Source of the DNA: an uncultured Pirellula sp.
GTDB taxonomy: Bacteria; Planctomycetota; Planctomycetia; Pirellulales; Pirellulaceae
DNA length: 64,000 nucleotides
Direction of reading: 5' to 3'
NCBI GenBank assembly: GCA_903858115.1
Contig: CAIOHR010000370.1
Location: forward strand, 1-64,000
Shown here: positions 25,214 to 38,570 of the stretch, one piece after another
Layout: each line of letters begins with the position of its first letter
How positions within the stretch are numbered: the stretch's first letter is position 1
Made by a program: the position numbers and the translations under genes
The notes under the pieces: generated by a model
The model's input: only the letters and a program-made list of their open reading frames with translations
Told to the model about the DNA's origin: nothing
Databases searched by the model: none

Positions 25214-26596
25214 TTACTCAGCGATTTCTTTTTTCGAAGCCAGATTATCGAGAATGCGATAGAGGCTTCGGCGGGCGATTCCTAGTTCTTTGGCCGCTCG
25301 GGTTTTGTTGCCGCGATTCCGTTTAAGAACTTCCGTAACGTGCCGTTGCGAAAGAGATTCTAGCGGGATGGCATCGCCGACTTTCGGCTGATCGGACAAC
25401 GCTTGGCTCAGCTCCTGCGATCCTGTGGAACGTTGGATTTCGCTCGGTAGGTTTTCGACATTGATGCAATGATCATCCGATAGAATTTTTGCTCGCTCCA
25501 GGGCATTGATGAGTTGGCGAATATTGCCGGGCCATGGATGGGAACGAAAAAGTTCCATCACTCCAGCTCCTAGTTTCCAATCCTCACCGAGCCAATGATG
25601 GATGAGGAGCGGAATATCGTCGATACGTTCTCGCAACGGTGGAATCGTGATCGACAATACGTTCACGCGATAATAGAGGTCTTCTCGAAACCTGCCATCG
25701 GCAACTTCTTTCCCCAAGTTTCGATTGGTTGCGGCGATCAATCGCACCTTCACCTTGCGTTCTTTGGTGGCGCCGATTCTGCGCATCGTACCATCTTCAA
25801 GCACTCGCAAGAGTTTTGCTTGCAATCCACCTGCGAGTTCACCGAACTCATCAATGAACAACGTACCGCCGTCTGCAATTTCAAAGAGCCCAGGTTTGGC
25901 ATCGACGGCACCGGTAAACGCTCCCTTTTCGTAGCCGAATAGCTCGCTTTCAAGCAGTGACTCTGGCAGCGCCGCACAGTTGATAACGACAAGAGGGCGA
26001 TCGGATAACGTGCTCTGAGCATGAATGGCGCGTGCGACCAACTCCTTGCCCGTACCGCTTTCCCCAAGAATCAAAACTGGCTTATCGCTCGGTGCAATGC
26101 GTGCGATGAGCCGCTTTACTTCCTGTATCCCTGGCGAGTTTCCAATCAAAGGCTTAGGGCGGTTGTGATTGGCTACTTGACGCTTCAGGTGGATGTTCTC
26201 GCGTTCTAGCGAAACTGTTTTTGCAAGTCGACGCACCAACATATCCAATTCGTCCAAACCGAATGGCTTCGAAAGATAATCGATCGCGCCCCGTTTCATG
26301 GCTTCCACTGCGGAGCCAATACTTCCACCTCCTGTAAGCATCACAATCTTCAGGTCAGGATCGTCGCGGTGCAGTCGCGTCAATAAATCCAAACCGTTCA
26401 CGCCGGGCATGTTCTGGTCGATGATCGCCACGTGAAAGTGCTGGTTGGTTTGAACGGCAATCGCTTGTTCGGCATTCGCCGCCGCAACCACTCGGTACCC
26501 TTGGCGCTGAAAAAAGCGACAAGCTGGCTCCAGAAAATCTGGCTCGTCGTCGACCAACAACAAGTCGAGTGGTTCGGTGAGTGTTGCGAGTACCAT
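25214..26596 (-). CDS. NtrC-family sigma-54 response regulator
   Basis: 460 residues from ATG 26596 (ATG 26626 would add ten; no clear ribosome site at either). Residues 10-125 are a receiver domain: LVDDEPD, phospho-acceptor Asp60 in IIDQNMP, and Lys110 in LSKPF. The AAA+ domain has Walker A GESGTGKE (178-185) and GAFTGA (225-230), the loop that contacts sigma-54. The C-terminal 40 residues, with NKTRAAKELGIARRSLYRIL, form a Fis-type helix-turn-helix. It should activate sigma-54 promoters after phosphorylation. It is divergent from the cbb3 oxidase genes, and both genes carry sigma-54 promoters. The likely partner is the FixL-like kinase at 37431-38570. Confidence 0.93.
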   Translation of the reverse strand: MVLATLTEPLDLLLVDDEPDFLEPACRFFQRQGYRVVAAANAEQAIAVQTNQHFHVAIIDQNMPGVNGLDLLTRLHRDDPDLKIVMLTGGGSIGSAVEAMKRGAIDYLSKPFGLDELDMLVRRLAKTVSLERENIHLKRQVANHNRPKPLIGNSPGIQEVKRLIARIAPSDKPVLILGESGTGKELVARAIHAQSTLSDRPLVVINCAALPESLLESELFGYEKGAFTGAVDAKPGLFEIADGGTLFIDEFGELAGGLQAKLLRVLEDGTMRRIGATKERKVKVRLIAATNRNLGKEVADGRFREDLYYRVNVLSITIPPLRERIDDIPLLIHHWLGEDWKLGAGVMELFRSHPWPGNIRQLINALERAKILSDDHCINVENLPSEIQRSTGSQELSQALSDQPKVGDAIPLESLSQRHVTEVLKRNRGNKTRAAKELGIARRSLYRILDNLASKKEIAE

Positions 26597-26677
26597 ACGG
26601 TTGCCTAGGGAATTAGAAGTTCTCATCCAGTGTAAGCTGCACAAAAGCAGATATCGGCCAAAGCGGATTACTGCATA

Positions 26678-26692
26678 GCAAATCAGGTGCCA
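26678..26692 (-). promoter_or_regulatory. Sigma-54 promoter of the response regulator
   Basis: On the minus strand TGGCAC-CTGAT-TTGC runs from 26692 to 26678 and is followed by T, a full match to the -24/-12 consensus TGGCAC-N5-TTGCW. Transcription should start near 26666, giving a leader of 40-70 bases before the response regulator start. This implies the activator controls its own gene. Confidence 0.75.
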
Positions 26693-26791
26693 TTCCTTTA
26701 TAGAATTGTGGATTCCTAGTGCTTTCCCTCGGGTGAACCGGTAAAATTCGAGAAGTAGCAAATAGGATTCTCTTCGAAATGGTCCTCTGAT

Positions 26792-26811
26792 ATGACTCAC
26801 ATGTGTGACAT
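26792..26811. promoter_or_regulatory. Palindrome, candidate activator site for the regulator gene
   Basis: ATGACTCACATGTGTGACAT matches its own reverse complement at 16 of 20 positions, with CACATGTG at the centre. The centre is about 135 bp upstream of the predicted sigma-54 start at 26666. That is the usual distance for an enhancer of an NtrC-type activator. It also resembles a CRP-type half-site pair without the standard spacing. Confidence 0.45.
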
Positions 26812-26897
26812 AAAGGCACAAATTGTTCGCGTGTCATGCCTAACCACGCTGGAGGTTGCGTTTTCATTTGGGAAACTGGGTGCGGTAATTTGCCCTT

Positions 26898-26922
26898 TGG
26901 TAGTGAGCCGACTCGACTACCA
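26898..26922. promoter_or_regulatory. Inverted repeat, candidate activator site for ccoNO
   Basis: TGGTAGT (26898-26904) and ACTACCA (26916-26922) are perfect inverted copies 11 bases apart. The centre is about 141 bp upstream of the predicted ccoNO start at 27051, nearly the same distance as the other palindrome has to the other promoter. The two sites do not share a clear core sequence. Confidence 0.45.
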
Positions 26923-27024
26923 CGCATTCCTTGCAATCGTTACTGTAAATTCAGGAAGACTGACCAGCCTTTAGAGCTGGGTATCGGAGTCAAACCATGC
27001 GTGCGGCAGTTTGTCGTTTGAGTA

Positions 27025-27040
27025 TGGCACGTTGGTTGCA
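27025..27040 (+). promoter_or_regulatory. Sigma-54 promoter of the cbb3 oxidase operon
   Basis: TGGCACGTTGGTTGCA is a perfect match to TGGCACG-N4-TTGCW, with GG at 27026-27027 and GC at 27038-27039. Transcription should start near 27051, 44 bases before the ccoNO ATG. Together with the divergent NtrC-type regulator this strongly suggests sigma-54 control of the oxidase. Confidence 0.85.
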
Positions 27041-27094
27041 TCCCGTGCAGACTCAATTCCCTTTCCAACTCTTTCTCAATCGATACGAATCGAA

Positions 27095-29524
27095 ATGTCA
27101 TTAGCCGAACAACCGCCCTCCTTTCTTTCTGAGACGACGGACCGAAAAGCAGGAGAGACAAGCACTTCATCGCAAGGGGGAGTGGAGACTCAGACGTTTG
27201 AATCCTTTAGTTACGATGACGGAATTGTGCGGATGTTTTTAGCCGCAACGATTTTATGGGCTATCGTCGCGACTGCAGCTGGATTGCTCGTGGGGCTCCT
27301 GTTGGTGTTGCCAAATCTTTGGCAAGGATTGGATCCTCGCATCGGTTCGATGCTTTCCTTTGGTCGTCTTCGTCCCTTGCATACCAATGCGGCTATTTTT
27401 GCTTTCGCGGGTAACGCAATATTCGCCGCTGTTTACTACAGTACGCAGCGATTGTGCAAATGCCGGATGTGGAGTGACCTGCTGAGTCGACTGCACTTCT
27501 GGGGATGGCAAGCGATCATCGTCGCGGCGGCCGTGACTCTACCGATGGGGATCACGCAAAGCAAGGAGTATGCTGAACTCGAATGGCCAATCGATCTTGC
27601 GATTGCAGTCGTTTGGTTAGTTTTTTTCGGCGGCAATTTTTTGATGACGCTGTGGAACCGTCGCGAACGACACATGTATGTTGCGCTTTGGTTTTACATT
27701 GCAACCATCGTGACCGTCACTGTGTTGCATGTTTTCAATAACCTTGTCGTTCCGATCGGGCTAGGCAAAAGCTACTCCGTCTACGCGGGCGTTCAAGATG
27801 CGTTGATGCAGTGGTGGTATGGTCACAATGCAGTCGCGTTTTTCTTGACAACACCTTTCTTGGGATTGATGTACTATTTCTTGCCCAAAGCAGCCGAACG
27901 TCCTGTGTTTAGTTACAAGCTCAGTATTATTCACTTCTGGTCGTTGGTCTTCATTTACATATGGGCCGGTCCTCACCATTTGCACTACACCGCGTTGCCT
28001 GAGTGGGCGAGTACATTCGGGATGCTGTTTAGTTTGATGCTATGGATGCCATCTTGGGGTGGGATGATCAACGGTTTGCTCACACTGCGTGGAGCATGGA
28101 ACAAGGTTACGACAGATCCGATTCTCAAGTTCTTCGTCGTTGGGATTACGTTTTATGGAATGTCTACGTTCGAAGGTCCGATGCTGTCCGTCAAGAGTAT
28201 CAATGCCTTGTCGCACTACACAGATTGGACGATTGCTCACGTGCACTCAGGAGCGCTAGGTTGGAACGGCTTCATGGCCTTTGGGATGATTTACTGGATG
28301 TTGCCCAGACTGTTCCAAACCAAACTGTGGAGCAAGAAGCTAGCCGAATGGCACTTTTGGTTGGGAACGATTGGCATTTTGCTTTATATCATCCCTATCT
28401 ATATGGCGGGTATCACGCAAGGCTTGATGTGGAGAGCGATGGATGAACTCGGCCGATTGCAATACCCTGATTTTGTGGATACCGTGCAAACGATTGTATA
28501 TTACTGGTGGGCACGATTGCTTGGTGGTGGTTTGTATGTCGCTGGTGTTTTGATGTTAGCAGTCAATGCCTTCATGACTTGGACCGGTCGACCTTCGAAG
28601 TATGAAGTACCCGTCTACTCGGCACCTCGATTGGGCAAGACGTATCAAGATGCACCTTTGCCAAAGAGCAAGCTGGAAGGTGTCCCTGTGACAGATCTTG
28701 CTGTCACCGTGGATAAGGTAGGGAAGATGGATTGGCACCGACGTTGGGAGCGACTACCGATTCGCTTTACGATTTTGACCACGATCGCAGTTGTTATCGC
28801 CAGTCTTTTCGAAGCGATCCCTATGTTCTTGATTCGAAGCAACGTACCGACGATTGCTTCCATCAAGCCTTACACTCCGCTAGAGCTGGCTGGCCGCGAT
28901 GTCTACATCAGTGAAGGGTGCTACAACTGTCACTCGCAAATGATACGACCGATGGTGGCGGAGACCCAACGCTATGGCGAGTACAGCAAAGCAGGTGAGT
29001 TTGTTTACGACCACCCGTTCCAATGGGGCTCGCGACGGATCGGTCCAGACTTGGCTCGCGAGGGAGGCATTAAAAGTAATTCCTGGCATTGGACCCACTT
29101 TGAAGATCCGTACAAGGCTTCTCCAGGCTCCATCATGCCGTCGTACAAGCACTTGTTAAAAGAACGACTGAACTTCGGACTGATACCAGACCGCGTTTGG
29201 GCCGCGAACTATTTGGGTGCTCCGTACGAACGCGAACTGACGGATTCTGTGGAGATGGCCAAGGCCCAAGCGGAACAGATCGCGGCAGATATCATTGCAC
29301 AAGGTGGAACGGTTAGCTACGAGGGCGGGTTGATCAAGGATTCGACCGCGATCGCGCTCATCGCTTACCTGCAACGGATGGGCAAAGATTTGTTTGCACC
29401 AGCACCTGCTGCGGAACCTGCAACTGCACCGGCGGACGGATCGGTTCCCCCTGCGGACGAGCCATCGAAAGAAACATCAACTAACACTGTCGCAGTTGCG
29501 ACGAGCGCTGGAGACAAGGAGTAA
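27095..29524 (+). CDS. ccoNO: cbb3 cytochrome oxidase, fused subunits I and II
   Basis: 809 residues from ATG 27095. The first part is CcoN, the haem-copper subunit: about twelve membrane helices with MQWWYGHNAVAFFLTTPFLG and the two-histidine segment YIWAGPHHLHYTALPEW for the copper site, and IAHVHSGALGWNGFM. After a linker around residues 495-560 comes CcoO, a membrane-anchored cytochrome c with CYNCH at Cys609 and the haem methionine segment SIMPSYKHLL. The tail is rich in alanine, proline and glutamate. The oxidase reduces oxygen to water with high affinity and pumps protons. Fused CcoNO is known from Bacteroidetes and planctomycetes. A sigma-54 promoter lies 55-70 bases upstream. Confidence 0.95.
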   Translation: MSLAEQPPSFLSETTDRKAGETSTSSQGGVETQTFESFSYDDGIVRMFLAATILWAIVATAAGLLVGLLLVLPNLWQGLDPRIGSMLSFGRLRPLHTNAAIFAFAGNAIFAAVYYSTQRLCKCRMWSDLLSRLHFWGWQAIIVAAAVTLPMGITQSKEYAELEWPIDLAIAVVWLVFFGGNFLMTLWNRRERHMYVALWFYIATIVTVTVLHVFNNLVVPIGLGKSYSVYAGVQDALMQWWYGHNAVAFFLTTPFLGLMYYFLPKAAERPVFSYKLSIIHFWSLVFIYIWAGPHHLHYTALPEWASTFGMLFSLMLWMPSWGGMINGLLTLRGAWNKVTTDPILKFFVVGITFYGMSTFEGPMLSVKSINALSHYTDWTIAHVHSGALGWNGFMAFGMIYWMLPRLFQTKLWSKKLAEWHFWLGTIGILLYIIPIYMAGITQGLMWRAMDELGRLQYPDFVDTVQTIVYYWWARLLGGGLYVAGVLMLAVNAFMTWTGRPSKYEVPVYSAPRLGKTYQDAPLPKSKLEGVPVTDLAVTVDKVGKMDWHRRWERLPIRFTILTTIAVVIASLFEAIPMFLIRSNVPTIASIKPYTPLELAGRDVYISEGCYNCHSQMIRPMVAETQRYGEYSKAGEFVYDHPFQWGSRRIGPDLAREGGIKSNSWHWTHFEDPYKASPGSIMPSYKHLLKERLNFGLIPDRVWAANYLGAPYERELTDSVEMAKAQAEQIAADIIAQGGTVSYEGGLIKDSTAIALIAYLQRMGKDLFAPAPAAEPATAPADGSVPPADEPSKETSTNTVAVATSAGDKE

Positions 29525-29526
29525 TC

Positions 29527-29715
29527 ATGTTGAAAGAAGTAATGGGCAAGCTCGACTATGCGATGTTCGATGAAATCGCAGTCGTGATTTTTGCCATGAG
29601 TTTTATTGCCATCGTCTGGGGTGCGCTTCGATTGCGACCTGATTCCGTAGAACGATTTAGTAACATCCCTATTCAAGACAACGTCGTCGATCCGAGGAAA
29701 GGACCTAACGCTTAA
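29527..29715 (+). CDS. ccoQ: cbb3 oxidase small subunit CcoQ-like
   Basis: A 62-residue protein with one membrane helix, IAVVIFAMSFIAIVWGALRL, then a short polar tail with RPDSVERFSNIPIQDN. Size, helix and tail match CcoQ/FixQ, which stabilises the assembled oxidase. It starts two bases after the ccoNO stop. Its own stop overlaps the ccoP start by one base (TAATG at 29713-29717), so translation is coupled. Confidence 0.85.
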   Translation: MLKEVMGKLDYAMFDEIAVVIFAMSFIAIVWGALRLRPDSVERFSNIPIQDNVVDPRKGPNA

Positions 29716-30305
29716 TGCCAACTTCGACCAAAAAAGAATCGTCCCTCGGACATAGTTACGATGGAATCCAAGAATACGACAACCCGCTTCCCAGTTGGTG
29801 GAAGTGGTTGTTCGTGATGACTGTCGTCATGAGTCCGTTCTATCTCATGTACTTTCACTCTGGGATGCCGGGCCGTTCCGTTGCGGATCAATATCAAGTA
29901 GCGGTGAACGAGAATACTCGAAAACAATATGCAAAGATTGGTGACCTCGAAGGAGATGAGGCCACGATGGTCAAGTTCCTGGCTGAACCTGAATGGGTTG
30001 GCGTGGGGCAAGCGATTTACAAAGCGAACTGCGTATCATGCCATGGTGCCGAAGGTGGTGGAAACGTCGGCCCTAATTTGTGCGATGAGAATTATAAACA
30101 CATCAAACAATTGACCGATATCGTCAAAGTGATCAATGAAGGTGTCGCGGGAGGGGCTATGCCCGCTTGGGCTAAGCGACTTCCCCACAAAAACGATGCC
30201 ATCTTGGTTTCTGTGTACGTTGCAAGCTTGCGGGGATCCAAACCTGCAACGGCAAAAGCACCCGACGGTAGCCCTATTGCCGCTTGGCCTCAAGGCAATC
30301 CCTAA
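29715..30305 (+). CDS. ccoP: cbb3 oxidase subunit III, single-haem form
   Basis: A 196-residue protein. The N-terminal YDGIQEYDNPLPSWWKWLFV is the CcoP signature, followed by one membrane helix. A cytochrome c domain follows with CVSCH at 106-110 and an axial methionine in GGAMPAWAKRL. Classical CcoP has two haem domains and about 300 residues; this one has only one, so electron entry must be shorter. The end, KAPDGSPIAAWPQGNP, is polar. It starts within the ccoQ stop and is followed after 77 bases by ccoG. Confidence 0.92.
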   Translation: MPTSTKKESSLGHSYDGIQEYDNPLPSWWKWLFVMTVVMSPFYLMYFHSGMPGRSVADQYQVAVNENTRKQYAKIGDLEGDEATMVKFLAEPEWVGVGQAIYKANCVSCHGAEGGGNVGPNLCDENYKHIKQLTDIVKVINEGVAGGAMPAWAKRLPHKNDAILVSVYVASLRGSKPATAKAPDGSPIAAWPQGNP

Positions 30306-30382: not shown

Positions 30383-32023
30383 ATGACTAACATTCCAAAC
30401 AGCCTGCATTCACCCTTCCCCATTCTAAGCGACGATGTCCGAAAAACACGTATCGCCGCTTGCTCGGTCGGATGCGGTGATTGCATGGGCACCGGGGATT
30501 GCACCTCCAAGCACGATCAGCGACATGCGTTGCATGCGATCGCTGGAAAAAGTGCCGATCTCACCGGGACAGTGAGCGAAGAAACCGTTGGTGCTTTGAC
30601 TGGGAATGATGGTTCGATTCTGATGCCGGAGGAGCAAGTACTCCCGACGTTGAATCGAGATGGAAAACGCAAGTGGATTAACCCCGCGATCGAACAAGGA
30701 CCAAAATGGAACTATCGTCGTTGGGTTGCGTATGCACTAATTGCGTTTTTTGTGGTGTTGCCTCATCTCCGAATCGATGGGAAACCCTACGTTCTGATCG
30801 ATATTGCAACACGCCAGTTCACGTTCTTGGGACATACGTTTTATCCAACCGATACGCCGTTGTTGGCCTGCTTGACATTGGCAACGTTCTTTTCCGTGAT
30901 GCTGGTCACCAGTTTGGCTGGACGCGTTTGGTGCGGTTGGGGTTGTCCGCAAACGGTATACATGGAATTTCTATTTCGACCGATCGATCGGTTGTTTCAG
31001 GGTACCGTTGGCAAAGGTGGGAAAGCCAAGCGAGAGCTCTCAGGCGCTATGCAATTTGCAAGAGTGCTGGTTTATCTTGTTTGTTGTATGTTCCTTGCTC
31101 ACGTTTTTCTAAGCTACTTTGTCGGTACGGATCGACTTGCGCAATGGATCGTTACACCTCCCACGGAACACCCCTCTGCATTTTTGATTATGGCAGGGAC
31201 GACCTTGGCGATGATGTTCCACTTCTTGTACTTTCGCGAGCAACTTTGCTTGATTGCCTGCCCCTACGGTCGATTCCAATCGGTAATGTTGGATCGCAAG
31301 TCGTTGATCGTGGCGTACGATCCTGGTCGAGGTGAACCACGCAAAAAAGGAAAACGGCAACCGTTGGCCCGTGAGCCGCTGACGCTTGAAGTGTTGACCA
31401 AGCCCGCTGTTGGCGACTGTGTGGATTGTGGACGCTGCACCGCCGTGTGTCCGACGGGAATCGATATCCGCAATGGACTCCAGTTGGAGTGTATCCACTG
31501 CGCTCAATGTGTAGATGCCTGCAATGCGGTGATGGGTAAGGTCGGTCTACCAACGGGACTCATACGCTACACCAGCCAGGATGGACTTGAAGGGAAAAAG
31601 GCTTCGTTGTTTCGAGCGAGGACCGTGATTTACTCCATAGCAGTTACGATTCTCGTGGGGCTTTTCTTCTTCACTCTTTCGTTCAAATTCGCATTCGATG
31701 CGAGAATATTCCGACAGCAGGGATCCCCCTTTATGGTTCGTCAAGACCGAATGGTGCAAAACAATTTCCGATTGCGACTCGTCAATCGAAGTCAAAGAGA
31801 ACAGCAGTACAACCTATCGCTCGCCGATAACGAGATGCAAGTGAATTGGAGTGGCGGGGAGCCGATCGTTTTGAAGCCAGGGGACACTCGGTTGGTGCCG
31901 ATCGATATTCTTTTTCCGATGCAAAAGACTTCAGTGCAAGGGTCGGTTAAGGCCAATCTAGTTGTAGCCGACAGTGCCGGCGCGAAGCGAGAAATTCCTA
32001 TCCACCTTTTGGGGCCGAGGTAG
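30383..32023 (+). CDS. ccoG: cbb3 oxidase accessory protein CcoG
   Basis: A 546-residue membrane iron-sulfur protein. The NapH/CcoG core begins at about residue 100 with NYRRWVAYALIAFFVVLPHL, includes GRVWCGWGCPQTVYMEFLF, and has two 4Fe-4S sites in CVDCGRCTAVCPTGID and CIHCAQCVDACNAV. The C-terminal 120 residues form a periplasmic immunoglobulin-like domain. CcoG helps supply copper to the oxidase by reducing Cu(II). The extra N-terminus carries a four-cysteine set, C27, C31, C34 and C40, with His44, which I do not know from standard CcoG. Its length is about 70 residues above the usual. Confidence 0.92.
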   Translation: MTNIPNSLHSPFPILSDDVRKTRIAACSVGCGDCMGTGDCTSKHDQRHALHAIAGKSADLTGTVSEETVGALTGNDGSILMPEEQVLPTLNRDGKRKWINPAIEQGPKWNYRRWVAYALIAFFVVLPHLRIDGKPYVLIDIATRQFTFLGHTFYPTDTPLLACLTLATFFSVMLVTSLAGRVWCGWGCPQTVYMEFLFRPIDRLFQGTVGKGGKAKRELSGAMQFARVLVYLVCCMFLAHVFLSYFVGTDRLAQWIVTPPTEHPSAFLIMAGTTLAMMFHFLYFREQLCLIACPYGRFQSVMLDRKSLIVAYDPGRGEPRKKGKRQPLAREPLTLEVLTKPAVGDCVDCGRCTAVCPTGIDIRNGLQLECIHCAQCVDACNAVMGKVGLPTGLIRYTSQDGLEGKKASLFRARTVIYSIAVTILVGLFFFTLSFKFAFDARIFRQQGSPFMVRQDRMVQNNFRLRLVNRSQREQQYNLSLADNEMQVNWSGGEPIVLKPGDTRLVPIDILFPMQKTSVQGSVKANLVVADSAGAKREIPIHLLGPR

Positions 32024-32026
32024 ATC

Positions 32027-32509
32027 ATGCAAGAGAAAAGCTCTCGCCGATTTTGGGTGCTATTCGTGCTCGGTTTTTTTGCTATTGACCTGACGATTGC
32101 AGTGATTGCGATCTCAATGGCGGCAGGTGATCCTTCGTTTCGTTCGATTCCTGGTTTCGGAGAACGGTCCGTTCATTGGGATGAACGTCAACAAAAACAA
32201 AGGCTTCTCGAAGAACTTGGTTGGAGCATCGAACTTGACAGCGCACTATCAACGAAAGAAGAGCTGAGGCTTCATATTTTCGATCGCAACGGCAAGCATG
32301 TGGAGGGCGTTCAATTGCAAATAGGCCTCTTTCATTACACTCGAGTTGCTGAGCAGCAAAAGATCCTCTGTGTAGAGAAAGATGGTTATTACATTGCCGA
32401 TGCCAAATTGCACAAACCCGGATTGTGGAACATGGATATCGACGGGGAAACTGCCGACGGCAGGAAGATTTGGTCTCAGCAAACCATTCGTTGGGAAATG
32501 ACTCCATGA
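32027..32509 (+). CDS. ccoH: FixH/CcoH family protein
   Basis: A 160-residue protein with one N-terminal membrane helix, FWVLFVLGFFAIDLTIAVIA, and an outside beta-rich domain. The segment DPSFRSIPGFGERSVHWDE matches the FixH motif DPxxxxxxxYYxxxL region in form, with GLWNMDIDGETADG near the end. FixH/CcoH supports assembly of the cbb3 oxidase and may contact the copper ATPase CcoI. The ATG at 32027 is three bases after the ccoG stop, and the stop overlaps the next ATG as ATGA (32506-32509). Confidence 0.88.
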   Translation: MQEKSSRRFWVLFVLGFFAIDLTIAVIAISMAAGDPSFRSIPGFGERSVHWDERQQKQRLLEELGWSIELDSALSTKEELRLHIFDRNGKHVEGVQLQIGLFHYTRVAEQQKILCVEKDGYYIADAKLHKPGLWNMDIDGETADGRKIWSQQTIRWEMTP

Positions 32510-33450
32510 ACGTAATTGAGGGAGCAATGGAACTGCTTTTAGCAACCTCCGTTGCATCCATGTTAGGTTCCTTGCATTGTGTGGCGATGTGTGGACCGTT
32601 TGCGATATTGGCCTCGAACTCGGCTACGAATCCCAGTGGAAGAATCCTCTCGAACCGGTTGATAGCATATCATGCCGGGCGATTGATCACTTATGTTTTG
32701 ATGGGTCTGATTGCAGGAACGTTTTCAAGCCTATTGTTGGCATCCGGCGTATTAACGAGCGTTGGGTTAGTGGTTGGTGGTTTGCTCATCGCAATGGCGC
32801 TAGCGCGATTTTGGGTTTTGCTTTTCCCAGAGACAGTTGAAGCCTTTCGTTCCAAACGTGAAACGCCGTGGCACAGTGGATGGGTAATGAAGTGGAGCAA
32901 GGGGCTCGCTCGCATTCGACGTTGGATTCCTAAAGATCCCGCGTGGCTCGGACCGTTGGGTTGGGGATTGACTACGACATTGCTTCCGTGTGGGTGGCTT
33001 TATCTTTTCATATTAACTGCGACTGCGGCGCAGAATCTAGGGATGGCTGTTGCCACGATGGTCGCATTTTGGCTGGGGACATTACCGTTGCTTTCGTTGT
33101 CAACATTGGGTTGGGCTCGGATGGGCAAACGATGGCAAACGTTGTCAGGTCCTGTAGCCGCATGTTGTATTTTGGGAATGGGACTTTATTTGATCGTCGC
33201 ACGTAGTCCCGTCGATGTATCACGATTGCAATCAACTTCCGAGTCGATGCCGCTTGTGCAAGTCGCCAATCATGAGTCGAATAATCCAGTCGAAGCGAAG
33301 ATGGATCCGACGCATACGGCAAAGAAGCGGGGGGGGGCCGCCTATGCTGGAGAAACAGGCAGGCAACGTTTGGAGCGAATGAGAAAGATGCTCAATGCGG
33401 GACTGCCATGCTGTGAGCCTTTTGTGGAGGAAACGCAACATGACGAGTAA
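32506..33450 (+). CDS. SafE/TauE-like membrane protein of the cco operon
   Basis: 314 residues from ATG 32506, coupled to ccoH by ATGA. The opening VASMLGSLHCVAMCGPFAIL and six to seven membrane helices mark the SafE/CcoS-linked sulfite exporter family, which often sits beside ccoI and is probably a metal or sulfur transporter for oxidase assembly. LGWGLTTTLLPCGWLYLFI is a second conserved block with a cysteine. After the last helix is a 70-residue polar tail ending with LPCCEPFVEETQHDE, where the double cysteine could bind a metal. The gene overlaps ccoI by 11 bases. Confidence 0.82.
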   Translation: MNVIEGAMELLLATSVASMLGSLHCVAMCGPFAILASNSATNPSGRILSNRLIAYHAGRLITYVLMGLIAGTFSSLLLASGVLTSVGLVVGGLLIAMALARFWVLLFPETVEAFRSKRETPWHSGWVMKWSKGLARIRRWIPKDPAWLGPLGWGLTTTLLPCGWLYLFILTATAAQNLGMAVATMVAFWLGTLPLLSLSTLGWARMGKRWQTLSGPVAACCILGMGLYLIVARSPVDVSRLQSTSESMPLVQVANHESNNPVEAKMDPTHTAKKRGGAAYAGETGRQRLERMRKMLNAGLPCCEPFVEETQHDE

Positions 33451-35983
33451 TGTCACACGTGAAGCCAAGTCATCGACAGCGTTGGTACCATGCAGTCATT
33501 GTGGACTGCCAACACCGGAAACACCGAAGTCCGATCGAGCGTTTTGTTGCAATGGTTGCATGGGCGCGTATGCCATGATTCACGAGCTAGGACTCGAGGA
33601 CTATTACAAACTTCGAACCACCGGTCATGGCTCGCAGTACGTTCGCGATTCGGAAAGTCGAATCGAATCGTTGGTCGATCTCGAAGCGGCTGGCGTCCAA
33701 GTGAATCATCTACCGGGCGGGATGGATTGCGTACGTTTGTCGGTCGATGGGATGCATTGTGCAGCCTGCTCTTGGCTCATCGAAAGATTTCAACCGACGA
33801 TACGAGGATTGCACAGCGCTCGGGTTCGGTTGAGCGATCACTCGGTCGAGTTGATTTATGATCCGGAGCAAACGAATGTTGCTCGCGTGGCAAGCCGATT
33901 GTCGAAGATCGGCTACGAGCTCAGTCCCTGGCAAGACGATCCGGATTACAACGCGGACGTGACCATTCGACAACGTGAACACTGGGCAGGGATCGCATTA
34001 GCTGCGTTTTTGGCTGCGAACGCCATGTGGATTGGAGTTGCGTTGTACGCGGGAGAATCGACCGGTATCTCCGCAGGCAACGAGTACTTTTTGCGTTGGA
34101 TCGGAGCCATACTCGGCCTGTTGTCGGCATTGTTGCCTGGTCGTATCTTTTTGCAGACCGCTTGGCAAGCCATTCTATCGAAGTCGCCACACGTTGATAT
34201 TCCTGTCGCGGTGTCGCTGTGCATCGGGACCGCCGGATCTTTAGTCGGTGCGTGGTACGGAAGCGGTCATATCTATTTCGATTCCCTCGCGTCGTTGGTA
34301 CTATTGCTTCGCATCGGTCGGTATCTTCAATTTCGAGCACAGTCGGTTTCGCGAAATTCGATCTCTAAGTTATTGCGTTGGAATTCGCAAGTGGCGCACC
34401 TTCTCGACGAGAGTGGCAATCGACATGCTATTCCCGCCAGTCGATTGGTCCCTAACGATCTTGTTCTCGTCGAACCGGGAGGCATCATTCCTGCCGATGG
34501 GATTGTGGAAGATGGCGAGAGTTCGGTGGATTCCTCGTTGTTGACCGGTGAGACCCTTCCCGTTTTGATTCAATCGGGATCGCGCGTCGTCGGTGGGACG
34601 ACTAACTTGAACTGTGCGATTCGAGTTCGGGTAGAGGCTGCTGGCGAATCGAGTCGCGTTGGCAAATTGATGGCGATGGTCCGTGAAGCTACTACGTATC
34701 GAACGCCGTGGATACAGGCCGCAGATCGCGTTGGAAGATGGTTTGTCGTCGTGGTTCTTTTGCTGGCCGTTGGCACTTGGGTCGGTTGGAGTGTTGCAGC
34801 CGACACTACCGTGGCTACTCAGCACACGATGGCATTGTTAACCATTGCATGTCCGTGTGCTTTGGCGCTCGCGGCCCCCTTGGTAATCACCATCGCATTG
34901 GGGCGAGCTGCGAAACGGCAGATTTGGATACGTGAAGGCGATTGCCTGGAGAAGCTAGCCAAGCCAGGGATGCTGTGGCTCGACAAGACGGGTACGCTAA
35001 CATTAGGCAGAATGCATGTTCATGAGTGGGTGGGTGATGAAAAATGGTTGCCAGCCATCGCCGCCATTGAGTGCTGCGTTCATCACCCCATCGCGAGTGC
35101 CATAGTGCGATTTAGCGAAGCGAACGATTGGAGCGGCAACACGAGCGAGGGACAAGCCGTTGCTCACTCGAATGATTGGGATCCTGCCTTAGATGTCGCT
35201 GCTGTCGTACAAGAGCGAGGCTTTGGTGTTAGAGCTATCGTCAATGGGAAGCATATGGCGATCGGCAATGCGGATTGGATGAAGATGCAGTTGGTGAGCA
35301 TTCGAGACCAAGAATGCAATCGAGCCAAGCAGATCGCTGATCGTGGTCAAACGACGATTTGGGTTGCCGCAGATCGAGAAGTCGTTGGAATGTTTGCCGT
35401 CGGAGATGCGTTGCGTCCAGATGCCGCTGGGTCTCTCCAAGAGATTCAGTCGATGGGTTGGAAGATGGGTATTTTGTCCGGTGATCATCCCCAAGTGGTC
35501 GAGAAGATTGCAAATAGTTTGCGAGAGCAAGGGATCCACATCGACCAAGTGTTGGGGGGCCAAAGTCCCGAAGACAAATTGCGAGTCATTCGACAAAGTC
35601 TATCCTCCGATGGCCGACAAACGGTGATGGTTGGAGACGGCGTCAACGACGCAGGTGCATTGGCTGCCGCAGATGTCGGGATTGCAGTCCGAGGAAACAG
35701 TGAACAATCGTTGGCAATCGCACCGGTGTACATTGCGAACCCTCGATTGAGTTCGTTGGTCGACTTGATGCGAGCATCGAGAGAGGTTGTGGTGGGGATA
35801 CGAAGGTGTTTCATTGCATCGCTGCTCTACAATGCGATCACTATTTCTTTAGCGATTGCCGGCTTGATTCATCCGTTGATTGCAGCGTTGTTCATGCCTT
35901 TGAGCGGATTGACAGTCTTGACGATGGCGTTGAACAGTAGAACCTTTGTCTCGAAGAGAAAGAAAGGTACGACAATACCATGA
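33440..35983 (+). CDS. ccoI: Copper P-type ATPase CcoI (FixI)
   Basis: 847 residues from ATG 33440, with GTGGAGG ahead. The N-terminus has two cysteine motifs, CSHCG (18-22) and FCCNGC (35-40), the usual CcoI metal-binding part, then an HMA domain with MHCAAC at 106-110. CPC is at 471-473, DKTGT starts at Asp515, and GDGVNDAGAL gives the hinge motif. CcoI exports copper at low rate into the periplasm to fill the oxidase copper site. It differs clearly from the SPC-type pump at 2909-4912. The stop overlaps the ccoS start (ATGA, 35980-35983). Confidence 0.94.
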   Translation: MTSNVTREAKSSTALVPCSHCGLPTPETPKSDRAFCCNGCMGAYAMIHELGLEDYYKLRTTGHGSQYVRDSESRIESLVDLEAAGVQVNHLPGGMDCVRLSVDGMHCAACSWLIERFQPTIRGLHSARVRLSDHSVELIYDPEQTNVARVASRLSKIGYELSPWQDDPDYNADVTIRQREHWAGIALAAFLAANAMWIGVALYAGESTGISAGNEYFLRWIGAILGLLSALLPGRIFLQTAWQAILSKSPHVDIPVAVSLCIGTAGSLVGAWYGSGHIYFDSLASLVLLLRIGRYLQFRAQSVSRNSISKLLRWNSQVAHLLDESGNRHAIPASRLVPNDLVLVEPGGIIPADGIVEDGESSVDSSLLTGETLPVLIQSGSRVVGGTTNLNCAIRVRVEAAGESSRVGKLMAMVREATTYRTPWIQAADRVGRWFVVVVLLLAVGTWVGWSVAADTTVATQHTMALLTIACPCALALAAPLVITIALGRAAKRQIWIREGDCLEKLAKPGMLWLDKTGTLTLGRMHVHEWVGDEKWLPAIAAIECCVHHPIASAIVRFSEANDWSGNTSEGQAVAHSNDWDPALDVAAVVQERGFGVRAIVNGKHMAIGNADWMKMQLVSIRDQECNRAKQIADRGQTTIWVAADREVVGMFAVGDALRPDAAGSLQEIQSMGWKMGILSGDHPQVVEKIANSLREQGIHIDQVLGGQSPEDKLRVIRQSLSSDGRQTVMVGDGVNDAGALAAADVGIAVRGNSEQSLAIAPVYIANPRLSSLVDLMRASREVVVGIRRCFIASLLYNAITISLAIAGLIHPLIAALFMPLSGLTVLTMALNSRTFVSKRKKGTTIP

Positions 35984-36126
35984 GTGTCCTCTATATTGCC
36001 TTGCCAGCGGCATTGCTTCTCGGAGCGGCTGGACTATGGGGATGTTTGTATTGTATTCGAAGTGGTCAATACGATGACTTGGATTCAGCTCCGATGCGGA
36101 TCCTTCATGATGAGGTGGAGAAATGA
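35980..36126 (+). CDS. ccoS: cbb3 oxidase maturation protein CcoS
   Basis: A 48-residue membrane protein with one helix: MSVLYIALPAALLLGAAGLW followed by CLYCIRSGQYDDLDSAP and RILHDEVEK. This is the standard CcoS pattern, with one N-terminal helix and SGQxDDLD just inside. CcoS is needed to load haem and copper into the oxidase. It is coupled to ccoI and to the next cytochrome gene by ATGA overlaps on both sides. Small size makes it easy to miss. Confidence 0.93.
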   Translation: MSVLYIALPAALLLGAAGLWGCLYCIRSGQYDDLDSAPMRILHDEVEK

Positions 36127-37427
36127 AACGAAAAAGTATCCTCTCTGCTTTGTGTTTAGGCCTGTGGTTTGCGACAACAGCCAATGCGGGTGACGATTTT
36201 GAGAATCCACCCATTGCCTACTACGATACGATCTCGAACGACCCGGTATCGATGCTTTGGAAGCAGATGCAATCAGGTCAAGCGAAGTGCGAGCCGGACG
36301 AAAAAGGAGAGTACTTGGGGCCACTCTTAAAGGCTCTGAATGTCCCAGTCTCGTCCCAGATCTTGGTCTTCTCAAAGACTAGTTTGCAGATTAGCCATAT
36401 CAGCCCGCGAACACCTCGGGCGATCTATTTCAACGATTCGGTGTATGTCGGTTTCGTTCAGGGAAGCAACATTATGGAGTTGACGGCGATCGATCCGCAA
36501 CTCGGTTGTGTCTTTTATACCTTCGAAGTCCCGAAAGGCGGGACTGACGAAGATGAACCAGATCGACCGACGGTGATCCGCGATCGTGGGCAATGTCTAT
36601 CGTGCCATGCGACAACCCGGACGGAGCGAGTACCTGGCGTACTTGTTCGATCAATCTATTCCGACAAGGCTGGCCGACCGCGTTCGGGTGCATCCAGTTT
36701 CGTGACCGATCACCGAAGTCCCTTCTTGCAACGTTGGGGCGGTTGGTATGTGACGGGTGAGCACGGAGCTATGCGACATCTAGGGAATACATTCGCATTG
36801 GACCGATTGGATCCTCAACAAGTCGATGCGGAAGAAGGAGCCAATTGGCCGAAGATGCCTGGCTTCATCGATACAAAACCATATCTTCGGGATACGAGTG
36901 ACATTGTCGCACTGATGGTGATGGAACATCAAACGCGAGTGCAGAATCTGATCACGCGAGCCAACTACGAAACACGCCAAGCGGTACATTTGGATCAAGC
37001 GATGAACAAAGCACTCGAGCGAGATTCAAGTCACGTTAGCGATTCCACGAAAAGGCGAATCGCTTCTGTGGGTGATGAACTGATTCGAGGACTATTGTTT
37101 GCTGACGAGTTTGAATTGACCAGTCCGGTGAAAGGGTCCGGTCCTTATCGTGATCAGTTTTCTAATCGAGGTCCCTGTGATTCCAAAGGGCGTTCGCTTT
37201 ATCAACTGGATTTGAAACAGCGGCTATTTCGTCATGGCTGTAGTTACCTGATTTTGTCATCACAGTTCGACGGGTTACCTGAACCTGTGATGCAATATTT
37301 AAGAAGTCATATGAGCGCAATTTTGTCCGGTTCTCAAGAACTACCGAGTGGTGTAAACCTGGATGATGCGAGGCGCGAGCAATTACGACAAATGCTTGTG
37401 GAACTCAAACCGGGATGGTTAATGTAA
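36123..37427 (+). CDS. Secreted c-type cytochrome of the cco operon
   Basis: A 434-residue protein with a signal peptide, MKRKSILSALCLGLWF to TANAGDD. A single haem motif CLSCH is at 158-162, preceded by PTVIRDRGQ. The rest is a large conserved domain: TPRAIYFNDSVYVGFVQGS, IDPQLGCVFYTFEV, RSIYSDKAGRPRSGASSFVT and DHRSPFLQRWGGWYVTG. I do not know a named function; homologous proteins with the same haem site appear in planctomycetes. It overlaps ccoS by four bases and stops three bases before the kinase, so it belongs to the oxidase transcript. It may deliver electrons to the oxidase or act as a sensor partner. Confidence 0.75.
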   Translation: MKRKSILSALCLGLWFATTANAGDDFENPPIAYYDTISNDPVSMLWKQMQSGQAKCEPDEKGEYLGPLLKALNVPVSSQILVFSKTSLQISHISPRTPRAIYFNDSVYVGFVQGSNIMELTAIDPQLGCVFYTFEVPKGGTDEDEPDRPTVIRDRGQCLSCHATTRTERVPGVLVRSIYSDKAGRPRSGASSFVTDHRSPFLQRWGGWYVTGEHGAMRHLGNTFALDRLDPQQVDAEEGANWPKMPGFIDTKPYLRDTSDIVALMVMEHQTRVQNLITRANYETRQAVHLDQAMNKALERDSSHVSDSTKRRIASVGDELIRGLLFADEFELTSPVKGSGPYRDQFSNRGPCDSKGRSLYQLDLKQRLFRHGCSYLILSSQFDGLPEPVMQYLRSHMSAILSGSQELPSGVNLDDARREQLRQMLVELKPGWLM

Positions 37428-37430
37428 GAG

Positions 37431-38570
37431 ATGTTGCCAACGAACCCTGGAGCTTCAGATAGTCCCGAGGACCGTGACACGGTCAATTCAGCACTGTTGG
37501 ATGCGATTTTGAATACCGCGATCGATGCGATCGTAACGATCGACGATCGAGGAATGATATTGCATGCGAATCGAGCCGTCGAGAAACTGTTTGGCCATCG
37601 GCCATCGGAATTGATCGGATGCAATGTATCCAAATTGATGCCCGAACCGGACCATTCGAGGCACGATGAGTATTTGCGACAGTATAGTAAAACTGGAAAA
37701 CGGAACATCATTGGCATTGGGAGACAGGTCTTAGGACTCCGAGTCGACGGCTCCTTGATTCCGATCGATTTGGCCATCAGCGAGGTTCGCGTTGGTGAGC
37801 GAACACTGTTCACCGGGATCATGCGAGACATGACAGAGCGGCAGCAGACTGAAGCCGACTTGCGAGCTGCTCAATTGAAATTGATTCAGAATGAAAGATT
37901 GGCAGCGATCGGTCAAATGATGACCGGGTTGGCCCACGAAAGTCGAAATGCGTTACAACGTTCGAGAGCATGTTTGGACATGCTCGACCTGGATCTCGAA
38001 TCTGCTCCTGATCAACGAGATTTGGTTCGGCGAACGCGATCTGCATTGGTGGAGCTGCAAACGCTGTATGAAGAAGTGCGAGGTTATGCAGCTCCGATTC
38101 AGTTAGGCAAATCGCAACACAATATCGCGGAACTATGCCAACAAACGTGGGAGAATATTCAGGAGCAATGGAAACCACTGCAAATCAAATTGCATTTAGA
38201 ATGCGAGCGTTGCCCTCCGTTGTCGTTCGATGCAACGCGTATTGGCCAGGTAATCCGCAACATTTATGAGAACTCGATTGCCGTGCTCGCGACAGGAGGC
38301 GTCATCTTTACGACTTGCCGAATCGTTCAGTACGGACGCAATAACTATATACAAGTTTCGTTTTCCGATGACGGACCTGGATTGAATGACGAACAGAAAG
38401 CCCATATCTTCGAGCCATTCTTTACTACCAAAACAAAGGGGACTGGTTTGGGGATGGCTATTTGCCAGCGGATAGTGGAGGCACATGCGGGACGGATCTT
38501 TGTTGGTGAGCAAGAACATCGTCATCCGAAAGCCAAAGGGGCCGTGATCGTGATGGAGTTACCCATCTGA
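37431..38570 (+). CDS. FixL-like PAS histidine kinase
   Basis: A 379-residue protein with no membrane helix. Residues 20-140 are a PAS domain very close to FixL: LMPEPDHSRHDEYLRQY puts His78 at the proximal haem ligand (His200 of B. japonicum FixL), and IIGIGRQVLG puts Arg98 at the oxygen-sensing Arg220. FixL His214 and Arg206 are Asn92 and Gln84 here. The phospho-acceptor is His169 in GLAHESRNALQ. The ATPase domain shows IYENSIAVL, SDDGPGLN and GTGLGMAI. It is likely an oxygen sensor that feeds the NtrC-type regulator at 25214-26596. Haem binding is inferred; some FixL-like PAS domains lack haem. Confidence 0.85.
   Translation: MLPTNPGASDSPEDRDTVNSALLDAILNTAIDAIVTIDDRGMILHANRAVEKLFGHRPSELIGCNVSKLMPEPDHSRHDEYLRQYSKTGKRNIIGIGRQVLGLRVDGSLIPIDLAISEVRVGERTLFTGIMRDMTERQQTEADLRAAQLKLIQNERLAAIGQMMTGLAHESRNALQRSRACLDMLDLDLESAPDQRDLVRRTRSALVELQTLYEEVRGYAAPIQLGKSQHNIAELCQQTWENIQEQWKPLQIKLHLECERCPPLSFDATRIGQVIRNIYENSIAVLATGGVIFTTCRIVQYGRNNYIQVSFSDDGPGLNDEQKAHIFEPFFTTKTKGTGLGMAICQRIVEAHAGRIFVGEQEHRHPKAKGAVIVMELPI

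Follow-up and report, generated by a model that had tools for sequence, protein, structure and literature searches.

A predicted oxygen-response unit at the cbb3 oxidase operon of a Pirellula: a FixL-like kinase, an NtrC-type regulator and facing sigma-54 promoters

The genes for a high-affinity, cbb3-type cytochrome oxidase in an uncultured Pirellula sp. lie next to a divergent gene for an NtrC-type regulator, and the initial annotation of this DNA had placed a sigma-54 promoter on each side of the gap between them. Sigma-54 promoters are unable to fire without an activator. We analyzed the locus in a stretch of 64,000 nucleotides (the window) from contig C370 of a 7.9-Mb genome. Our reading of the sequence, to which we give a probability of roughly 0.73, is that the region from 25.2 to 38.6 kb is a self-contained oxygen-response unit, in which a FixL-like kinase would signal to the NtrC-type response regulator (RR), and the RR would act through sigma-54 at both promoters. 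The features of the region are as follows.

25214-26596, minus strand: gene for the NtrC-type RR, 460 amino acids, with Response_reg, Sigma54_activat and HTH_8 domains (Pfam) and relatives in the PDB.
26678-26692, minus strand: predicted sigma-54 -24/-12 element of the RR gene, TGGCACCTGATTTGC, an exact match; GG, A and TGC are kept in 14 of 14 genomes, this one included.
26804-26820, no strand assigned: candidate enhancer (UAS), TGTGACATAAAGGCACA, palindromic, from a de novo search for palindromic motifs.
27002-27018, no strand assigned: imperfect copy of an ActR/PrrA/RegA-like box, TGCGGCAGTTTGTCGTT, directly upstream of the ccoNO sigma-54 element; 0 of 200 shuffles scored as high.
27025-27039, plus strand: predicted sigma-54 -24/-12 element of ccoNO, TGGCACGTTGGTTGC, an exact match to the consensus; GG and TTGC are kept in 14 of 14 genomes, this one included.
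27095-29524, plus strand: ccoNO, fused cbb3 subunits I and II, 809 amino acids (Pfam; NCBIfam NF011053, 1199 bits, cut-off 1080).
29715-30305, plus strand: ccoP (FixP_N and Cytochrome_CBB3).
30383-32023, plus strand: ccoG (FixG) (Fer4_18 and FixG_C).
32027-32509, plus strand: ccoH (FixH) (FixH).
32503-33450, plus strand: DsbD_2 membrane protein, named S by its position (DsbD_2).
33440-35983, plus strand: ccoI, copper P-type ATPase (E1-E2_ATPase, HMA).
36123-37427, plus strand: secreted-looking protein with one CxxCH (C158-H162); its gene directly precedes that of the FixL-like kinase in 12 genomes of the genus, the window's and 11 relatives.
37431-38570, plus strand: FixL-like histidine kinase, last gene of the operon, with a haem-PAS domain (H78, R98), a HESRN H-box (H169) and HATPase.

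Pfam domains confirmed the gene identities given in the initial annotation, an NtrC-type RR and a fused CcoN-CcoO. The RR has a receiver with D60 as candidate phospho-acceptor, an AAA+ domain with a Walker A motif (GESGTGKE at 178) and GAFTGA (at 225), and HTH_8, the combination that defines the NtrC family. From ccoNO to fixL the genes are separated, in order, by 190, 77, 3, -7, -11, 139 and 3 bases. The CxxCH protein (36123-37427) matched no Pfam family and its fold no PDB entry at E ≤ 0.001; its AlphaFold2 model had a mean pLDDT of 69 with 17 sequences. In other Planctomycetota its gene adjoins those of REC-HESRN kinases (L226, L228, L233, L234, L237, L238). It is possibly a member of the regulon or a partner of the sensor.

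We found the complete -24/-12 matches that had been claimed for both sides of the gap. At each site GG at -25/-24 and GC at -13/-12 stand at the fixed spacing of sigma-54 promoters, and the predicted transcription starts, 12 bases past the GC, would be at about 26666 and about 27051. The start codons that bound the gap are the ATG of the RR at 26596 and the ATG of ccoNO at 27095. The further statement that no other gap in the window carries TGGCAC-N5-TTGC also proved correct: on both strands of the 64 kb, these two are the sole matches with zero mismatches. Of the eight one-mismatch matches, seven are within ORFs of at least 200 amino acids, and the eighth (821-835) is in no listed ORF of that length, ORFs that leave the window end being unlisted. 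Loose matches carry little meaning, since there were 92 with up to two mismatches in 64 kb compared with 64.2 ± 7.8 in 100 shuffles. When the 498-base gap was subjected to mononucleotide shuffling, at least one exact match on either strand arose in 20 of 20,000 shuffles. Genome-wide there were 32 exact matches to TGGCACN5TTGC and 14 to the reversed pattern, used as a control, so a single exact match could easily be due to chance; the weight rests on the facing pair and on its conservation. The sigma-54 DNA-binding family had one match in the whole genome and the sigma-54 activator domain had 24, the top 15 at E 3.5e-25 or better.

The divergent gene pair was present in 14 genomes, the window's own and 13 relatives, and no relative that keeps the pair has lost the motifs. 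In all 14 the best site on each side retained GG and GC; at both promoters these positions were invariant and the spacer varied, although the choice of site favours GG and GC because the scoring gives those bases the most weight. The score on the RR side was reached by 0 to 14 of 200 shuffles, and several of the motifs there are CGGCAT, TGGTAC or TGGTAT forms. On the ccoNO side the score was reached by 0 to 1 of 200 shuffles in 12 genomes of the genus, by 3 in G059 and by 12 in G105, two genomes of a related genus whose ccoNO motif is weaker (TGGTATN5TTGC). We regard the prediction of sigma-54 promoter elements on both sides as strong.

Within the genus, the occurrence of the ccoNO element followed that of the RR. 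Among 27 genomes, ccoNO was found in all 27, an RR ortholog in 13 and a FixL-like kinase (E 1e-60) in 12. All 12 kinase-bearing genomes are among the 13 with the RR; in the thirteenth (G117) the operon leaves the contig in ccoG. We scanned the 250 bases upstream of ccoNO on the coding strand, using weights that we set ourselves on what we took to be the sigma-54 consensus. The 12 readable genomes that have the RR (the window's included; G125 was cut) all scored 0.94-1.00, and none of the 12 readable genomes that lack it exceeded 0.81 (G109 was cut; G127 offered 240 bases only). Because the ccoNO tree places motif-bearing and motif-less genomes in a small number of clades, we set the Fisher test (12/12 versus 0/12) aside as evidence; the pattern corresponds to about two gains, or to a single gain with three losses, and does not represent 24 independent cases.

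One genome, G130, retains remnants of the RR (residues 162-219) and of the kinase (residues 283-379). There both ccoG and the CxxCH gene are incomplete; the matches to ccoNO, P, H, S and I cover nearly their full length, and the motif is degraded (TGGCACGAACGTTGT, score 0.87). The order RR<>ccoNO-P-G-H-S-I-CxxCH-fixL was conserved where contigs permit, whole in some contigs and fragmented in others; in G059 and G105, from a related genus, fixL is convergent with the RR gene. Comparison of the sequences supports a gene unit whose parts appear to be conserved jointly and to decay jointly. Other observations in the genus concern copy number and spacing. In G107 (L163) the RR-ccoNO gap spans about 2.6 kb and has apparent repeated segments (perfect palindromes, repeated translations), and both sigma-54 elements still adjoin their genes. 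G131 (L161) and G121 (L162) have, beside the motif-bearing ccoNO, a second, distant one (46% identity) with no full-score sigma-54 motif. Two copies of the FixL-like kinase, 98% and 94% identical to the window's, are on separate contigs of G115 (C50 and C239; L174, L175), which could reflect a recent duplication, a strain mixture or contamination.

Between the two promoters, a de novo search found a palindrome, TGTGCCATnATGGCACA. At width 17 its log-likelihood was 59.6, compared with 27.6 ± 1.9 (largest, 32.1) in 20 dinucleotide shuffles; this search used nine of the 14 gaps, those of G115, G116, G121, G107 and G105 being excluded. With the width set to 16, 18 or 20, the search yielded, instead of the palindrome, the sigma-54 element or a blend of the two. 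The palindrome scored at least 20 bits in nine of the 12 RR-bearing genomes of the genus, including seven used to build the matrix, and 9 to 11 bits in G107, G131 and G121. The best score was 8.0 in the 12 genomes of the genus without the RR, and scores reached 14.5 (G037) in other genera without the sigma-54 motif. It was also absent or weak in G059, G105 and the other genera with the sigma-54 promoter. Of 31 places in the whole genome with up to two mismatches to the consensus, 26804-26820 is the sole candidate enhancer copy. Its center is about 134 bp from the -12 of the RR promoter and 227 bp from that of ccoNO. We have moderate confidence that the palindrome is the site of the RR.

The PAS domain of the kinase encoded at the end of the operon had FixL as its top PDB match (8js5, E 1.8e-31). 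Its H78 and R98 are the equivalents of the proximal haem histidine and the distal arginine of FixL, which we take to be His200 and Arg220; the numbering of the arginine agrees with the altered position in the 1y28 alignment. Across 30 aligned kinases (those of the 39 matches at E 1e-60 with a retrieved locus), the histidine was found in 27 and the arginine in 29; G090, G003 and G032 have no such histidine. The H-box reads HESRNALQ. The NCBIfam model of full-length FixL (NF041777) gave 224 bits, below its cut-off of 850, so "FixL-like" refers here to the PAS domain and not to the whole protein. The residues are good grounds for predicting that the kinase binds haem and senses oxygen. The gene unit in the window contains no FixJ-type partner (NarL/FixJ output), its regulator being NtrC-type, and neither a protoglobin sensor kinase (NmpU) nor a REC-kinase hybrid (NmpS).

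The proposed mechanism is as follows. At low oxygen, oxygen would leave the haem of the FixL-like kinase (37431-38570), and the kinase would be released; the sign of this response is taken by analogy with FixL. The kinase would autophosphorylate at H169 and pass the phosphate to D60 of the RR. The RR would then bind the palindrome at 26804-26820, assemble an AAA+ ring and drive sigma-54 polymerase at both divergent promoters, raising the output of its own gene and of the ccoNO-P-G-H-S-I-CxxCH-fixL operon, which a single transcript would cover as far as fixL. Should these promoters serve both partners, the loop would be positively autoregulated. There are good grounds for expecting the RR to drive both elements, and good grounds, in joint conservation and loss and in adjacency elsewhere, for expecting the FixL-like kinase to be its partner, but the kinase gene is 11 kb from the RR gene. 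A promoter for the kinase in the 139-bp gap before the CxxCH gene is possible, and the RegA-like box at 27002-27018 may add sigma-70 control. The promoter reading of the initial annotation is supported; missing from it were the FixL-type sensor, the palindrome and the ActR/PrrA/RegA-like box.

Beyond Pirellula, 20 genomes from other genera carry ccoNO; 19 of these were scored (G007 was cut). The motif upstream of ccoNO scored 0.94-1.00 in G025, G051, G043, G027, G017 and G047, 0.87 in G055 and 0.86 in G059. In G029 an exact motif, missed by a narrower scan, lies 205 bases before the estimated ccoNO start. The RRs of the motif-bearing genomes group with those of Pirellula in a single clade (support 0.95), apart from that of G043; the tree did not include G017. 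This clade is not exclusive, since RRs from genomes that lack a ccoNO match (G012, G049 and g67 genomes) belong to it as well. The sensors are of two kinds. A FixL-type PAS is found on the HESRN kinase in Pirellula, G059/G105, G029 and G142, and a protoglobin on the HESRN kinase in G047 (also PDB 5ohe, 8e-25), in G051 and, with GAF domains, in G043. A protoglobin kinase accompanies a REC-HESRN hybrid in G025, adjoining the RR, and in G017, where the 18.7-kb stretch has no such RR. A FixL-PAS kinase accompanies a REC-HESRN hybrid in G027 and G135, adjoining the RR, and in G155, whose short contig carries no full RR. In the kinase-core tree, a clade with support 1.0 unites the HE[LI]RNPL sensor kinases and separates them from the HESRN kinases, several joins among the latter being weakly supported; each class carries both kinds of haem domain. 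At E 1e-60 the kinase profile had matches in 40 of the 392 genomes in a sample of the phylum, some of them over the kinase core only. Among the best 80 of 195 named Planctomycetota loci, 51 encoded a FixL-type PAS that keeps the two haem residues; in 27 of those 51 an RR of this kind lay no more than 3.5 kb away, many contigs being too short to show a neighbor.

A FixL match alone did not predict the motif. We had set beforehand, for the Mariniblastus-like group g67, the expectation that a FixL match at E 1e-60 goes with a ccoNO motif of at least 0.94 and that genomes with no such match lack the motif, and this failed. Among eight g67 genomes with a FixL match, ccoNO was matched only in G142 (1.00, a pass) and G143 (0.86, a miss). 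Among g67 controls with no FixL match, the motif was found in G135 (0.94), G144 (1.00) and G155 (0.94) and not in G146 (0.66), so that the prediction was wrong in three of four. G135 and G155 have FixL-PAS sensor kinases and REC-hybrids close to ccoNO, absent from the 1e-60 list; no such sensor kinase or REC-hybrid was found near ccoNO in G144 or G134. Outside g67, G105 (with a FixL match) scored 0.86, and G134 (1.00) and G133 (0.94) are both outside the FixL matches. Two genomes were left unscored, G141 (cut at the contig start) and G132 (two pieces with stops). The RR clade fits the distribution of the ccoNO motif better than the FixL match does, a fit seen after the fact, with the same two exceptions of G043 and G017. 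Six g67 genomes (G136, G137, G145, G147, G148, G160) have the FixL-like kinase and no ccoNO match in the genome, and in four of them the retrieved stretch has an NtrC-type RR near the kinase. The pair would thus have other targets there.

These data allow readings other than a unit in which the FixL-like kinase signals to the RR. A regulator of the ActR/PrrA/RegA type might mainly run the oxidase with sigma-70, the sigma-54 element being secondary. A palindrome, TGCGnCAAnTTGnCGCA, tops the palindromic motifs upstream of ccoNO in 11 genomes of the family without the sigma-54 motif (width 17; log-likelihood 66.1, compared with a mean of 29.1 and a largest value of 32.9 in eight shuffles), and it resembles the RegA/PrrA box, whose consensus we take to be GCGNC-N5-GNCGC. 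A ChIP site of Rhodobacter capsulatus RegA at ccoN is given as GCGACCGTTCGTCGC in the available text of PMC5359404. The Pirellula genome encodes a possible reader of such a box, an ActR/PrrA/RegA-like RR of 183 amino acids (contig C139, L301:1489-2040, minus strand; NF033791, 174 bits, under the cut-off of 250). In seven of 13 RR-bearing gaps, the window's included, the best copy was matched by at most 2 of 200 shuffles, which makes dual control of ccoNO possible. However, in the remaining six between 5 and 112 of 200 shuffles equaled it, whereas GG and GC of the sigma-54 elements are invariant, and in G116 and G128 the best copy is the candidate enhancer itself. A simple scan of the RR-ccoNO gap found no match to a sigma-70-type promoter, and control of this kind would leave the association of the motif with the RR unexplained. 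We consider it unlikely to be the main control. A shared degenerate dyad, TGYGNCA-N3-TGNCRCA, was dropped as a candidate site; it blends the candidate enhancer with the RegA-like box, and the latter is also found in genomes without the RR.

It is similarly improbable that the promoters and the RR are as we propose and that another kinase feeds the RR, a REC-HESRN hybrid or a globin relay encoded elsewhere, with the FixL-like kinase as passenger or target. Such partners do adjoin the RR in other genera: a REC-hybrid with a globin kinase in G025, a globin-HESRN kinase in G047 and G051, and a REC-hybrid with a FixL-PAS sensor kinase in G027 and G135; the distance between the window's kinase and RR genes points the same way. 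Against this, the FixL-like kinase directly adjoins the RR in G059, G105 and many other Planctomycetota, and G130 keeps mere remnants of both. That both sigma-54 matches are functionless products of chance is very improbable. Exact matches in the genome are only about twice as frequent as those of the reversed pattern, but contact positions are kept at both promoters in 14 of 14 genomes while the spacer varies, and in the genus the motif is associated with the RR; we rejected this reading on conservation.

A sigma-54 activator for a cbb3 oxidase had been called unusual, and this holds with one precedent, the NtrC-like RR NmpR of Myxococcus xanthus (PMC11841059). According to the available text, NmpR raises operons and a sigma-54 site was needed at the promoter tested; this RR is oxygen-responsive and its regulon includes a cbb3 operon; autophosphorylation of NmpU requires haem; and this sensor kinase switches the output kinase, NmpS, off (PMC11841059). 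Nmp homologues have been noted in Planctomycetes (PMC6211767). The NmpRSTU system and the window share a haem oxygen sensor (predicted here), an NtrC-like RR, sigma-54 promoters, a cbb3 operon and sites at the system's own genes (PMC11841059, PMC6211767). The NmpS architecture (REC, then kinase) is found beside relatives of the RR in G025, G027 and G135, with an NmpU-type protoglobin kinase in G025, and G017 has both kinds of kinase, with no such RR on the retrieved stretch. The window differs from NmpRSTU in that its sensor is a FixL-type PAS on the output kinase itself and not a protoglobin, with no REC-hybrid in the unit, and in that the RR gene is divergent from ccoNO. A further difference is the candidate site, TGTGCC-N5-GGCACA as compared with GCGCA-N5-TGCGC. 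In G135 (L323) and G155 (L327) an NmpU-NmpS-like relay has the FixL-type PAS on its upstream kinase, and under the off-switch logic of NmpU-NmpS the response to oxygen there would be inverted, unless the coupling differs.

In rhizobia, the FixLJ/FixK system links a FixL-type haem-PAS kinase to cbb3 genes, FixL being the haem sensor of FixJ. The window's kinase is like FixL in its PAS domain, whose top PDB match is FixL and in which the haem histidine and the distal arginine are retained. In contrast, its core has a HESRN H-box, and the regulator linked to it is a sigma-54 activator of the NtrC type in place of FixJ. The likeness to RegB/RegA (PrrBA, ActSR, RoxSR) lies in the GCGNC-N5-GNCGC-like box, clear before ccoNO in several relatives and imperfect in the window, and in the encoded RegA-like RR, which differs from the window's divergent RR. 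RegB/RegA control is not known to have a sigma-54 step. The CorSR system of M. xanthus has an NtrC-type RR, predicted sigma-54 promoters and, in its operon, a gene like that for cbb3-type subunit III, but it responds to copper and not to oxygen, and its operon is not an oxidase operon (PMC3707914, in the text available, which also quotes the sigma-54 consensus as TGGCACGRNNNTTGCW). The terms cytochrome, oxidase and cbb3 are absent from the available text of a survey of sigma-54 regulons that includes Planctomycetota (PMC12316311). In the listed titles and abstract openings of literature on FixL with sigma-54, NtrC, cbb3 or Planctomycetes, we found no description of a FixL-NtrC pair. Studholme and Dixon (2004) reportedly dealt with the activators of Pirellula. 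The general idea, that an oxygen-responsive NtrC-like RR controls cbb3 through sigma-54, thus has its precedent in NmpRSTU; apparently new are the FixL-NtrC pairing, its spread in Planctomycetota and the interchange of two sensor types, globin and FixL, on a single output kinase.

A wider picture, which we put forward tentatively and at slightly less than even odds, is a modular circuit in Planctomycetota. One output pair, a HESRN kinase and an NtrC-type RR, with sigma-54 and with cbb3 among its targets, may have been given FixL-PAS or protoglobin sensors repeatedly, either separate, as in an NmpU-NmpS-like relay, or fused, so that the relay was short-circuited more than once. In Pirellula the pair may have taken over an oxidase promoter that in relatives is under a RegA-like box. 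If the proposed unit is correct, a FixL PAS drives a sigma-54 activator, which would bring together a well-known domain for sensing oxygen and the second major class of activators in bacteria. The same output pair under globin and under FixL sensing would offer a natural comparison; G130 would be a natural loss, and relatives of the ccoNO promoter bear another regulator's box. In the titles and shown abstracts of the literature, we found no candidate described for oxygen control of respiration in Planctomycetota. The unit proposed here would provide a concrete, testable one.
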